This document shows, one piece after another, positions 45,896 through 52,276 of a stretch of 64,000 bases of DNA; the stretch's first letter is position 1; each line of letters begins with the position of its first letter. Below the pieces are notes generated by a model that saw nothing but the letters and a program-made list of their open reading frames with translations, ran no database searches and had not been told where the DNA came from. The position numbers and the translations under genes are program-made. Source of the DNA: Dyella sedimenti (lineage in GTDB: Bacteria > Pseudomonadota > Gammaproteobacteria > Xanthomonadales > Rhodanobacteraceae); NCBI RefSeq assembly GCF_022760995.1, contig NZ_JAKWJO010000001.1:496001-560000 (forward strand). Direction: 5' to 3'.

Positions 45896-47734
45896 ATGGT
45901 GAGCAAACATTTGTCCGGAAATTCACGTGACAAACGTAGTTTGTTTCGCGCGCGCGCGGTAGCTGGCTTCCTGCTTATCGGGGCAGGCTTTGGTCTGTTG
46001 ATAGGACGTTATCAGTACCTACAGATATGGCGCCACGATGAGTTGGCCCTGCGTTCGGAAAGCAATCGTGTAAAAGTGCGTGCGATACCGCCGGCACGCG
46101 GGTTGATTTATGACAGGAATGGAATATTGCTGGCTGAGAACGTGACGGCATTCCGCCTGGAAGTCATTCCCGAGCAAGTGAATGATATGACATCGACCCT
46201 GTCGGCGATTTCCAGTGTTGTACCGATCGACGATGATGAGATCGATTTGTTCCGAAGGAGATTAAGCCAAAATCGTCACTTTGATAGTGTGCCATTGAAA
46301 ATGCATTTGACCGAAGACGAGGTCGCTCGTTTCGCGGTCAATCGATGGCGCTTTCCTGGCGTGGATGTGGTGCCCTATCTATCGCGTCGATACCCACATG
46401 GACCACTGCTTGCCCATGTAATTGGTTACGTGAGTCGTATCGATGTGGATGATCTGAAGCGAATCGATGCAGACATCTATAAGGGGACTAGCCATATCGG
46501 TCGCGACGGTCTGGAGCGTTCGTATGAAGATGTACTGCATGGCAAGCCGGGCTACGAATTGGTTGAGATGAACGCGGATGGCCGTGTTCTAAGGATACTT
46601 GAGAGGCATGAGCCCATACCGGGGGAAAATCTTTACCTGAGCATCGATATGGCCATGCAGAAGGCTGCAATGGACGCTTTTGAAGGGAGGCCGGGATCGG
46701 CAGTCGTTATCGATCCGCGTAATGGCCAAGTGATGACCATGGTCAGTGTGCCCAGCTTCGATCCCAATCTTTTCGTTATGGGTATCAGTCGCACCGATTA
46801 TGCGACCTACCTGGAGGATGAGAGGAAACCATTGCTCAATAGAGCATTGAAGGGGGCTTATCCACCAGGTTCGACAATCAAGCCATTTCTGGCGCTTGGA
46901 GGCCTGGAAATGGGCATCCGTAGGCCAGAGGACACGGTGCTGTCCACTGGCGAATTTTGCATTCCCGGGCAGCGGCGTTGCTACCGTGATGACAAGAAGG
47001 GTGGCGATGGCTTGGTGGACATGGTCAAAGCTATTCGGCTTTCGACCAATACGTATTTTTATAAGCTTGCGCTGGATATGAACATCGACCGGATGACCGA
47101 GTGGATGGGAGCGCTTGGCTTTGGAAGAAAGACGGGCATCGACCTGCTGGGGGAGGCCGAAGGGATTTTGCCATCACGTGAATGGAAGGCTTTGCATGGC
47201 AGGCATGCTTGGTTTTCGGGGGATACCGTTATTGCAGGAATCGGCCAAGGCTATTGGAATGTCACCACGCTCCAGCTCGCGCATGTTACCGCAACCTTCG
47301 CTGCGCGCGGCGTGCCCTATGCGCCGAGATTGGTGATGGCTGCCGCTTCCTTTAAAGAGCCTCCGAGACTGTTACCCAGTCCGCCCAAGGGGCCGACGTT
47401 GATCCGCAATCCAAGCCACTGGGATGTTGTGAATCTTGGTATGGAGGCGGTTATCGAGGAAGGAACAGCCAAAGGCCTGTTCGATGGTTTTCCACACGTG
47501 GTTGCGGGGAAGAGTGGTACCGCGGAACGTTTTTCGCGCCGTACCAACGATTATGATCGCAATAAAGACAATGCCTATCTTGCAGCACGTCATCGCGCAT
47601 GGTTCATAGGTTATGCGCCCGCTGAAGCGCCACGCGTCGTTGCAGCGGCAATGCTTGAAGCTGGCGCCTGGGGAGCTCAGGACGCAGGTCCGATTGTACG
47701 GAGAATCCTTGAAGCCTGGCTAGAGATAAAGTGA
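45896..47734 (+). CDS. Penicillin-binding protein 2 (accessory MrdA-type transpeptidase)
   Basis: A 612-residue class B PBP of the PBP2/MrdA type. One N-terminal anchor (about 19-37), a non-catalytic pedestal, and the transpeptidase domain with S326-T-I-K329, S383-T-N385 and K539-S-G541. It would cross-link peptidoglycan during elongation in the periplasm. Unlike the usual setting beside rodA and mreBCD, it stands alone. Its codons are visibly richer in A/T (TTT, AAT, GAT, ATA) than neighbouring genes, suggesting horizontal acquisition. Confidence 0.93.
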   Translation: MVSKHLSGNSRDKRSLFRARAVAGFLLIGAGFGLLIGRYQYLQIWRHDELALRSESNRVKVRAIPPARGLIYDRNGILLAENVTAFRLEVIPEQVNDMTSTLSAISSVVPIDDDEIDLFRRRLSQNRHFDSVPLKMHLTEDEVARFAVNRWRFPGVDVVPYLSRRYPHGPLLAHVIGYVSRIDVDDLKRIDADIYKGTSHIGRDGLERSYEDVLHGKPGYELVEMNADGRVLRILERHEPIPGENLYLSIDMAMQKAAMDAFEGRPGSAVVIDPRNGQVMTMVSVPSFDPNLFVMGISRTDYATYLEDERKPLLNRALKGAYPPGSTIKPFLALGGLEMGIRRPEDTVLSTGEFCIPGQRRCYRDDKKGGDGLVDMVKAIRLSTNTYFYKLALDMNIDRMTEWMGALGFGRKTGIDLLGEAEGILPSREWKALHGRHAWFSGDTVIAGIGQGYWNVTTLQLAHVTATFAARGVPYAPRLVMAAASFKEPPRLLPSPPKGPTLIRNPSHWDVVNLGMEAVIEEGTAKGLFDGFPHVVAGKSGTAERFSRRTNDYDRNKDNAYLAARHRAWFIGYAPAEAPRVVAAAMLEAGAWGAQDAGPIVRRILEAWLEIK

Positions 47735-47770: not shown

Positions 47771-47798
47771 GAAGCCGCTGGAACATTCCAGCGGCTTC
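47771..47798. terminator. Perfect 13-bp hairpin between PBP2 and the GG-leader gene
   Basis: GAAGCCGCTGGAA-CA-TTCCAGCGGCTTC lies 36 nt after the PBP2 stop and 23 nt beyond the end of the convergent small gene. It probably separates the two transcripts; no long U-tract follows on either side. Confidence 0.55.
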
Positions 47799-47820: not shown

Positions 47821-47976
47821 CTAGGATTCGTATGCCCAAAATTCAGTCCACCAGCCATGTGCGTAGCAACCATCCGGGCCACACCAGAAGTCACCAAACG
47901 CAACTCCTCCCTAAATCAGATTGGTTTCTTCTGTATTTAACTCCACCATTTCCTCTTTCTTGCTTGTCGCATTCAT
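47821..47976 (-). pseudogene. Double-glycine-leader peptide gene interrupted by TAG
   Basis: AAGGA lies 7 nt before an ATG at 47976. The frame encodes 21 residues ending EEMVELNTEETNLI, then TAG (47911-47913), then reads on in the same frame for 29 residues starting GGVAFGDFWCGPDGC and ending at a TAG at 47821-47823. Leader pattern plus Gly-Gly is that of bacteriocin/RiPP precursors cleaved by C39 peptidase-transporters. The core would have 4 Trp, 2 Tyr and 2 Cys. The stop is one base from TGG, TCG, CAG or AAG. Dead gene or read-through; undecided. Confidence 0.5.
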
Positions 47977-47979
47977 TGG

Positions 47980-48640
47980 CTTATCCTTGATCTGAGTTGA
48001 TGGCCGCCGATCGGCATATGAAAGACTCTGTGTGTCTACGTTTATAGGAAATCAGATGAGTCTCAAAAGTAGTTTGTCTGCTTCCAAGATGACTCATGGG
48101 GTCCATTGAAAATGAGCGACGTCCTCTCGGGTAGTGGGTGACCGCACCGGCACGAAGGTTGCTGATGTCGCAGATGACAAGCCAAGGACTGAGCGCAGTA
48201 GTGCGCATTCCTCCGTTACGTACCACGCACGCACCGCAATGGGGGAGTTTCGGCAGCGGAACTTGGCCTTGGCGCAGTGATACGAGCGCTATGGCGTTGG
48301 AATGATCGAGTAGTCTTTATGGATGCACAAACTCGCGTGTGCCCAAGTGCGCAGGAGCACTCCGGGCAATAGTCGAGTTGTCATAAATGGGGTTGTGAAG
48401 TGAACCACGGGGACCATTGCGGTACGCATTCGATAGGCACAAAAGCGTCAATCCGTCTCACGGCATGTCGTCATAAAGGCCGTTTCCCAAGCGATTGGCA
48501 CTATCCGTCGGAAAAATGGCACTCGATGCCGGCAGGGCGTGCCTAACATTTCGCCGCTCTGATTTTCATGCCCAGGCGAGGGCATGAAACATCGCACGGC
48601 CGTCGATCACTACGCTGTTCCTGTGGCCATGCTGGCCCGG
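47980..48640. other. Low-coding region upstream of the GG-leader gene and DoxX
   Basis: About 660 bases with no supportable gene. GC content is lower than in the flanks. An 81-codon minus-strand frame (47981-48226, GTG start) lacks protein-like character. Possible scars include a short ATG frame at 48239 ending at 48280. A direct repeat near 48495-48523 and small stem-loops before DoxX are listed separately. Confidence 0.5.
48495..48523 (+). promoter_or_regulatory. Putative operator: TGGCACT direct repeat upstream of DoxX
   Basis: TTGGCACT (48495-48502) and ATGGCACT (48516-48523) are spaced by 21 bp, two helical turns, a layout typical of AraC-family binding sites. The GlxA/AraC-type regulator is encoded two genes downstream, which makes it the natural candidate to bind here. 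Confidence 0.45.
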
Positions 48641-48693: not shown

Positions 48694-49092
48694 ATGACTG
48701 GATTGCAGCCAATCCTGCGAAGTCCCGCATATCTCACGCTGGCCAAGCTCATACTCACCTCCATGTTCTGGTTCAGCGGATTCGCCAAGCTCATCGATTT
48801 CCAGGGGACGGTGGAGGAGTTCCAGCATTTCAATCTTTACCCCGCCGGGGCACTCGTTTTCATTGTCATCGTGATCCTGCTGATTGGATCCATTCTGGCA
48901 ATATGGGGTGGTCATCATGCATGGATAGGGGCGGGGGCGCTTGCCTTCTTCACCCTGCTGACCATTCCCATCGCGCACGATTTCTGGAATATGACCGGCA
49001 CGGAGGCCTTCAAGGAAAAGCTGGTGGTCATGGAGCATCTCACGGTCGTCGGAGCCCTGATGCTGATGGCGCCAGCGGAAGGGAAGCCATAG
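48694..49092 (+). CDS. DoxX family membrane protein
   Basis: A 132-residue four-helix inner-membrane protein (segments about 12-33, 52-74, 77-97 and 108-128) of the DoxX/DoxD family, with the early motif LTSMFWFSGFAKLIDFQGT. Members take part in redox or thiol stress, but the reaction is usually unknown. GAAGGA precedes the ATG at 48694. It is followed 42 nt later by a GlxA-type regulator, suggesting a regulator-target pair. Confidence 0.88.
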   Translation: MTGLQPILRSPAYLTLAKLILTSMFWFSGFAKLIDFQGTVEEFQHFNLYPAGALVFIVIVILLIGSILAIWGGHHAWIGAGALAFFTLLTIPIAHDFWNMTGTEAFKEKLVVMEHLTVVGALMLMAPAEGKP

Positions 49093-50508: not shown

Positions 50509-50831
50509 GTTCAAACTGTCGCGCTCCTCGGTCACGCGCTTGAGCTCAGCCTTCAGGCGCCGTACTTCCGCCGAATCCTTTGCCGTCGATTGCAGCACCG
50601 AATCGCTGCCGCCGCGTGTGCCGCGTTCTTCGCCTTGCGCAGCCACTCGTAAAGGCTGTGACTGGATACTCCCAACCGCTTGGCCACTTCGGCCACTGGA
50701 TAGCCACGCTCGGTCACCTGCTTGACCGCTTCGGCCTTGAACTCATCCGTGTATTGCTTGCTGATCATAAACACCTCTGTCGTTGCCATGAATTATGGCT
50801 TCGAGATGTCTACAAAAAACTGGGCGGTCCA
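50405..50831 (-). mobile_element. Decayed IS3-family element with orfA fragment
   Basis: Ends TGGACCGCCCAGATTTTTGT (left, 50405) and its inverted counterpart ending GGGCGGTCCA (right, 50807-50831) are nearly identical 25-bp repeats. Inside, minus strand, an orfA begins at 50768 (MISKQYTDEFKAEAVKQVTE, a helix-turn-helix transposase N-terminus). It shifts frame after WLRKAKN near 50620; the rest of orfA (RRLKAELKRVTEERD) lies in the other frame and stops at the internal deletion. orfB is absent, so the element cannot move itself. No flanking 3-bp duplication is seen. Confidence 0.85.
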
Positions 50832-51295: not shown

Positions 51296-52090
51296 CTACC
51301 GGAAGTCCCGAGCCGCCACGCCCGAGCTGGATAGCTTTGCCACAAAGTCGCCATAGGCAAGATGACCCTGCATCTTGGCTAAGTCTTCCGGTTTGACGTG
51401 CCCCTTCTTCTTAGTGAGATGGTCGTATGCCCGCAACCTATTTCTGTAGCCCTTGGTCAGGCGCACTTCGCTGCCACTCACGAGTAAGCCATGGACCTTC
51501 AGGCGCTTGGGTGCGATTGCGATAGATGTCTTCTGACTGGCTAGTTGCCAAGGCCCGCCTTCAAAAAGAGCAGTGATCCGGCTGTGTAGTTCGCTCGGAT
51601 ACTCATTTTCTCCAGAGAAGACGATGTCATCTGCGTACCTGCTTAGCTTGACGTCATAGTCGTTGGCTATCTGGCTGAGGAAATCATCCAGCTCTGAGAA
51701 GCAGATGTTGGAAATGACTGGACTTGTTGGCGCACCTTGAGCAAGGAACCCTCGCAAGCAGGCGAGCGTTGCTATGAGCTCTGCTCCCTCGTCTGGGAAG
51801 CCGATCCCCTGCAGCGCATCAACGACGCGGTGCTGCGGTGTTGATTGGAAGAAGTCCCTGATGTCGACAGACAGGACCCATCTTGCATTAACGTGCACTC
51901 GTGCCGCGTCGACATGCGAGCGCCCTGCAACGAAGCCAAAGACATGATCGGTACCCAACTTTGGGCCATCTAAGTAGCCTCCGAATAAGATCGTCTTAGC
52001 AGGCTGGGCCATCATTGGATGCACTTGCTTAGGCTGAAGCTGCCTATTTCGTCGCCGGTCTTCGTCCGCTGACACGAAGTTTGGGCGCAT
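51296..52090 (-). CDS. Retron-type reverse transcriptase, N-terminally truncated
   Basis: A 264-residue reverse-transcriptase domain. Motif A is SVDIRDFF (Asp76), the GAPTSPVISN motif is at 119-128, and the catalytic YADD at 152-155; a retron-like GLLVSG follows. DAARVH (61-66) sits where retron enzymes have NAxxH. The first motif of the family (IPKxxGGxRxI) is missing, and the frame upstream runs into the tRNA-Phe terminator. The 5' end, with any msr-msd RNA, therefore appears lost. C-terminus looks complete. Activity doubtful. Confidence 0.75.
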   Translation of the reverse strand: MRPNFVSADEDRRRNRQLQPKQVHPMMAQPAKTILFGGYLDGPKLGTDHVFGFVAGRSHVDAARVHVNARWVLSVDIRDFFQSTPQHRVVDALQGIGFPDEGAELIATLACLRGFLAQGAPTSPVISNICFSELDDFLSQIANDYDVKLSRYADDIVFSGENEYPSELHSRITALFEGGPWQLASQKTSIAIAPKRLKVHGLLVSGSEVRLTKGYRNRLRAYDHLTKKKGHVKPEDLAKMQGHLAYGDFVAKLSSSGVAARDFR

Positions 52091-52162
52091 AAAGACTGTT
52101 ACTCGGACTGAGCACTTTTCGAACGGCAACCGAGCGGCAACCAGAGAAGGCGAGTACAAAAA

Positions 52163-52195
52163 TGAAAAGGGCCTGCATCGCTGCAAGCCCTTGAA
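52163..52195 (-). terminator. Terminator of tRNA-Phe
   Basis: On the minus strand AAGGGCTTGCA-GCGA-TGCAGGCCCTT forms an 11-bp stem with one G-U pair, followed by TTCATTTTTG, directly after the tRNA 3' end. Confidence 0.85.
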
Positions 52196-52200
52196 ATCAA

Positions 52201-52276
52201 TGGTGGCCGGGGACGGAATCGAACCGCCGACACGGGGATTTTCAATCCCCTGCTCTACCAACTGAGCTACCCGGCC
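52201..52276 (-). tRNA. tRNA-Phe (GAA)
   Basis: A 76-nt cloverleaf with encoded CCA. The acceptor stem is GGCCGGG/CCCGGCC, the D arm contains AGCTCAGTTGGTAGAGC, the anticodon stem GGGGA/TCCCC frames the loop TTGAAAA (anticodon GAA, Phe), and the T arm GGTTCGATTCC is standard. The accessory patch with IS and reverse-transcriptase remnants lies on its 3' side, the usual integration side. Confidence 0.97.

Follow-up and report, generated by a model that had tools for sequence, protein, structure and literature searches.

A stop-interrupted double-glycine peptide gene beside an extra PBP2 gene in Dyella sedimenti

The window analyzed here is a 64,000-nucleotide stretch of the Dyella sedimenti genome, and it contains a small peptide gene, interrupted by an in-frame amber codon, that converges on a gene encoding an extra PBP2. 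The features of the locus are:

45896–47734, plus strand: extra PBP2 (mrdA-like) gene, 612 aa, with PBP_dimer and Transpeptidase domains and intact STIK, STN and KSGT motifs
47771–47798, no strand assigned: perfect 13-bp inverted repeat between the convergent peptide and PBP2 genes
47821–47823, minus strand: final stop codon of the peptide gene, TAG, read in frame
47824–47910, minus strand: Gly-Gly and a 27-residue core, VAFGDFWCGPDGCYAHGWWTEFWAYES, homologous to the G004 core (shuffle test below)
47911–47913, minus strand: amber codon (TAG) in the reading frame, at −3 of the double-glycine site; five comparators have Ser here
47949–47947, minus strand: ATG of Met10, the likelier start, giving the leader MVELNTEETNLI, as judged from 15-residue comparator leaders
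47914–47976, minus strand: 21-codon leader frame of the original prediction, with its first ATG at 47976
48137–48307, plus strand: transposase gene remnant upstream of the peptide gene, at least 161 bp from the first ATG

Read from 47976 to 47821, the minus strand gives MNATSKKEEMVELNTEETNLI, TAG, GGVAFGDFWCGPDGCYAHGWWTEFWAYES and a second TAG. The original prediction, made from this DNA alone, had described the frame, the amber codon and a Shine-Dalgarno sequence (AAGGA, 7 nt from the ATG at 47976), and all of these are as it described them, on what is the minus strand, which it left unstated; a recount of the 29 codons after the TAG likewise gives the 15 that it quoted and 14 more. Its 21-residue leader exists as a frame from the ATG at 47976, but because five comparator leaders are 15 residues long, Met10 is the likelier start, and translation probably begins at 47949–47947; the TAG falls at −3 of the double-glycine site. 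The frame can be taken as real because there is a homologue in another Dyella genome (G004; see below). The window peptide has no Pfam or NCBIfam match above cut-off, a promoter scan found no sigma-70-type match upstream of it, and the inverted repeat is absent from the intrinsic terminators listed by a terminator scan. With the TAG at 47911–47913 there is no uninterrupted precursor gene in the window. The transposase remnant is presumably of the IS3 orfB type, and G001 has this element with a complete frame of 272 aa.

Of 19 further genomes of the genus that were searched, one (G004) has a homologue without an interruption (50% identity, E 3.9e-10), in a stretch identical to that of Dyella sp. 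EPa41. A family-wide search (233 genomes, counting the window's own) at a threshold of E ≤ 0.1 gave matches in eight, and only those in the window's own genome (1.6e-33) and in G004 are convincing; the others (E 0.0108 to 0.0991) were judged not to be. Across the order (398 genomes, two-row profile) there are 17 genomes with E ≤ 0.05, the same two being the only strong ones and the next at 0.00328, and one of the weak matches (G423) is by eye a GG-leader frame with a different core. The homologue is detectable only at the protein level, and a DNA search with 180 bp of the locus against 61 genomes (relatives, own included) found the window's genome only. Pattern scans gave a single relative, Dyella sp. 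EPa41, among 74 stretches from a named genome collection, and none among 53 from viral contigs.

Aligned against each other, the two cores score 85, a value that none of 20,000 shuffled sequences reached (mean 28.9, sd 6.1). From the Gly-Gly onwards 15 residues are identical, four of them Trp, and eight of the 11 identical non-Trp residues differ in codon between the window and G004. Identical residues specified by different codons suggest that the protein sequence was maintained by selection over most of the period since the two diverged, and that the TAG probably arose late, after long selection on the peptide, as far as a comparison of two sequences can indicate. The original prediction held that the absence of a homologous core in relatives, or random substitution across the codons, would speak against it; the core is present in G004, and the pattern of kept residues and changed codons is not a random one. 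It also proposed looking at the counterpart of the TAG elsewhere, which is a sense codon in G004 and Ser in all five comparator leaders.

The G004 genes lie on one strand in the order fusion protein (HlyD_3), C39-ABC transporter, peptide, PBP2 and DUF3267 protein. Frames near the peptide that were run on Pfam comprise the transporter, the fusion protein, PBP2, the DUF3267 protein, a rhomboid protein and one without a match, and no modifying enzyme was recognized among them; nothing was thus seen in support of the RiPP label that had been offered as one option. The double-glycine leader reading itself is borne out by the intact homologue. Five double-glycine leaders, found by a GG-peptide pattern scan at Dyella C39 transporter loci, are all 15 residues long with Ser at −3:

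MQELTAEQTEMISGG: the G004 homologue, ending in the double-glycine
MKELNLEEINEVSGG: a second G004 precursor
MQELTIEQTDAVSGG: another precursor in the window's own genome
MREISILEIDLVSGG: G001
MRALSLRELELISGG: G005

These are the five retained of 17 rows in the scan, the remaining 12 being discarded as fragments of larger genes or as frames antisense to them; of the six Dyella transporter loci, two (L059 and L061) gave no GG peptide in it. The second G004 precursor (L012 4842–5009, minus strand) lies beside a gene for a rhomboid-domain membrane protein.

A transporter of this kind is found at E ≤ 1e-150 in five of the 20 genomes of the genus, and an orthologue at ≥90% identity only in the window's genome (G000) and G004. 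Three C39 domains of the window's genome score above the Pfam cut-off, and the orthologue of the G004 transporter, sought as the original prediction had advised, is intact on contig C2, away from the window peptide: it is 90% identical and without a stop, the C39 triad residues are present in both proteins, and the accompanying fusion protein is 81% identical to that of G004. Directly downstream of the C2 transporter is an intact precursor of another type. At this locus (L017 4146–6880, minus strand) the precursor is followed by a 120-aa frame and two DUF3267-type frames, of which the first has a Pfam match and the second is 59% identical to it, and there is a further frame that we take to encode a CPBP protease. 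Homologues of the transporter, the fusion protein and the DUF3267, CPBP, rhomboid and 120-aa proteins are all lacking at the window's peptide locus. Transporter matches elsewhere in the window (E 1e-12 to 8e-9; frames at 5.2–5.7, 33.9–34.4 and 34.7–35.2 kb) cover the ATP-binding part only and were rejected. The window peptide is an orphan in this sense, and the C2 transporter could in principle have served it in trans.

The closest known systems are the class II microcins, of which the microcin V type comprises a precursor, an immunity protein, a C39 ABC transporter, a membrane-fusion protein and TolC; a layout such as that in G004 is described in passages of PMC9746304 and PMC10233263. The G004 homologue corresponds to this class in its leader (ending GG or GA in the class) and in having a C39 transporter and fusion protein at the genome level. 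Further likenesses are the 15-residue double-glycine leader and small core, the position of the G004 transporter and fusion-protein genes upstream of the peptide, and weak, below-cut-off matches of other Dyella precursors to Pfam MccV or Bacteriocin_IIc. There are also departures: the core is at most 27 residues, Trp-rich and without likeness to the known cores of Pfam and NCBIfam, the window copy is interrupted by a stop, and the neighbour shared by the two loci is a 612-aa PBP2 instead of a small immunity protein of the membrane. The class II immunity proteins described in PMC10233263 and PMC9746304 have 51–216 aa. The neighbour of the window peptide is PBP2, and in G004 a 229-aa DUF3267 membrane protein that follows PBP2 could be an alternative candidate. 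The window locus is very probably an inactivated class II microcin-like precursor gene.

The TAG itself is best read as a recent inactivation by a nonsense change, which the original prediction had favoured. The G004 homologue has the core and a sense codon (Ser) at the same place. Loss of the transporter neighbour, the transposase remnant upstream and the lack of a promoter match fit with decay of the gene. These same observations argue against the suggestion that an intact precursor, exported in trans by the C2-encoded transporter, only seems to carry the TAG through an error of sequencing or assembly; the sequence does come from a single draft genome of 22 contigs, one genome only, the rest of the peptide gene looks sound and the C2 transporter is intact, but errors at one named codon of a draft assembly are rare and we think this improbable. 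Production of the core by read-through, the other option raised in the original prediction, is less well supported and more improbable still. It would account for a frame that is open to a sensible end with conserved core residues, but the sense codon in the G004 homologue indicates that read-through is not a conserved trait, and a CTA anticodon is absent from all 47 tRNA places in the window's genome, although an unusual tRNA could be missed. A dedicated suppressor tRNA was considered and set aside on the same tRNA count, and a start within the core is precluded by the lack of an ATG, GTG or TTG codon in the core frame. Ordinary genes in the window also end in TAG, as had been pointed out; both rpoN and the doxX frame at 49092 do so, and TAG ends nine of 35 long frames, a list chosen by length in which some frames are not shown to be genes. 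The third gene named in the original prediction, ggt, was located neither by a one-motif test nor in the scanned frames. Open length alone is uninformative, as 27% of base-shuffled versions of the post-TAG stretch, at equal length, stay open, and one might ask if this is a meaningless frame with a chance likeness to a GG-leader peptide. The shuffled core scores and, already by itself, a homologue found at E 3.9e-10 in the right operon contradict this, and we give it almost no credence.

The original prediction recognized the double-glycine peptide correctly but overlooked the gene next door. The extra PBP2 has both domains and the SxxK, SxN and KSGT motifs expected of PBP2 (MrdA), and its best PDB match is MrdA 7kis (E 8.9e-157). 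It ends 86 bp from the end of the convergent peptide gene; in G004 both genes are on one strand, with 155 bp between the peptide and the start of the extra PBP2 that follows it. The canonical mrdA of the window's genome is elsewhere (G000:C1:6148-7950) and is 75% identical to the extra copy. Eighteen of the 20 Dyella genomes encode a single PBP2; the other two, the window's own and G004, encode a second one, and it is these that carry the peptide, with the genes adjacent in both. The orientation and surroundings of the pair differ between the two genomes, and PBP2 is the sole neighbour common to both peptide loci. Under random placement the two peptide carriers coincide with the two PBP2 carriers in one of 190 draws in the genus, a figure whose weight is lowered by kinship. 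In the family, with up to five candidates scored per genome, two PBP2s are seen in four of 233 genomes, the additional ones being G256 and G213. Both G256 copies lie within identical 4,800-bp stretches; the second G213 gene, 47% identical, is on a contig of 7,877 bases (C29, L052) with a whole second set of gatCAB, mreB, mreC, mreD, mrdA and rodA, and is probably a contaminant. The genes around the pair differ from those in relatives: in G013, genes for the cysteine dioxygenase and the FAD protein (71% in DNA) are followed by another gene and no PBP2, and the peptide and extra PBP2 therefore seem to have been inserted in the window's lineage.

In a phylogenetic tree the extra PBP2s fall among those of the genus and its nearest sister genus, joined weakly (90/32), with end branches of 0.57 and 0.29 compared to a median of 0.055. 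The dN/dS values of extra versus canonical PBP2s are 0.174/3.17 and 0.126/1.40, with dS near or beyond saturation. The long branches, the intact motifs and dN well below dS suggest that these are fast-evolving yet working enzymes, which fits a target variant and also a specialized synthase. Both extra copies depart from the canonical PBP2s at twelve sites that are invariant among the latter, against 4.7 expected (p 8e-4 if rates are equal), and at four of these they share the new residue, but uneven site rates or shared ancestry could explain this and we set it aside as functional evidence.

How could these elements fit together? We consider it likely that a class II microcin-like precursor was silenced by a recent nonsense change, and the extra PBP2 may have been its partner. 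The change would have fallen at −3 of the double-glycine site. With the gene intact, a peptidase-ABC transporter would use its C39 domain to remove the 15-residue leader and would export the Trp-rich core through a membrane-fusion protein; genes for such a transporter and fusion protein are still present at another place in the genome, next to a different precursor. The antibacterial action that we infer for the peptide would be directed at PBP2 of the cell-elongation machine, with the extra PBP2 a variant of this target that let the producer survive and that may have stayed while the toxin was lost. Antibiotic producers can protect themselves with a second, insensitive copy of the target, and a divergent, catalytically intact second essential enzyme beside a possible inhibitor gene resembles this, although the putative inhibitor here would be a peptide, ribosomally made and secreted. 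It is plausible, if somewhat short of an even call, that the extra PBP2 is a copy of the target that protected its own cell and has outlasted the toxin. The full chain, in which a Trp-rich GG peptide inhibits PBP2, immunity comes from a target-variant PBP2, and the toxin was lost with the resistant target kept, is more tentative again.

Nearly as likely as a self-protecting copy is a role without relation to the peptide, with the extra PBP2 carried along as a passenger or acting as a cell-wall synthase under specific conditions. Stand-alone mrdA genes occur on Rhodobacterales plasmids and a Vibrio plasmid without such peptides; in eight plasmid PBP2 neighbourhoods (of 51 records) the pattern scan gave nine rows and no convincing GG peptide. 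Salmonella PBP2SAL similarly is an extra PBP2 alongside the canonical one in the same genome, a host-cue-regulated enzyme for which the abstract of PMC11834469 mentions no peptide gene. Unlike PBP2SAL, the Dyella extra PBP2s adjoin a GG peptide gene, and a passenger role sits less easily with the joint occurrence of peptide and second PBP2 in the same two genomes, adjacent and in differing arrangements. However, only these two linked cases are seen here, so the pair possibly reflects one ancestral event, which counts against a partnership.

The amber codon alone would mark an ordinary lost bacteriocin gene; the extra PBP2 next door is the more interesting part, and the pairing is the new element. 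None such was found in searches of an open-licence library on PBP2 or mrdA with bacteriocins, microcins or immunity. If the self-protecting reading is true, this would be a gene-encoded natural peptide inhibitor of PBP2 whose target is revealed by linkage. Class II microcin pipelines, as described in parts of PMC9746304 and PMC13174018, seek immunity proteins of up to 250 aa, a ceiling by which protection through a target copy would be systematically overlooked, and a scan of GG-peptide neighbourhoods for additional essential enzymes would then test this directly.

We note several other features. The Vibrio europaeus plasmid pVEu has its stand-alone mrdA (L142 4956–6818) beside genes for a phosphopantetheinyl-transferase, a hydrolase, a cupin and an aminotransferase, which may form a biosynthetic cluster whose PBP2 gives self-protection. 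Three Rhodobacterales plasmids (L145, L146 and L147) have in common a stand-alone mrdA with cytochromes c, L,D-transpeptidases and a DsbA-type protein. Within the window, a reverse transcriptase frame (51296–52261, minus strand; RVT_1; best PADLOC model RT_IX, E 5.4e-89) starts inside a tRNA-Phe gene (52201–52276, minus strand) and lies at its 3′ end, as if a reverse transcriptase cassette had entered there. A transposase orfA-like frame (HTH_Tnp_1; 50553–50789, minus strand) is located between the gene for an AraC-type regulator and the reverse transcriptase gene.
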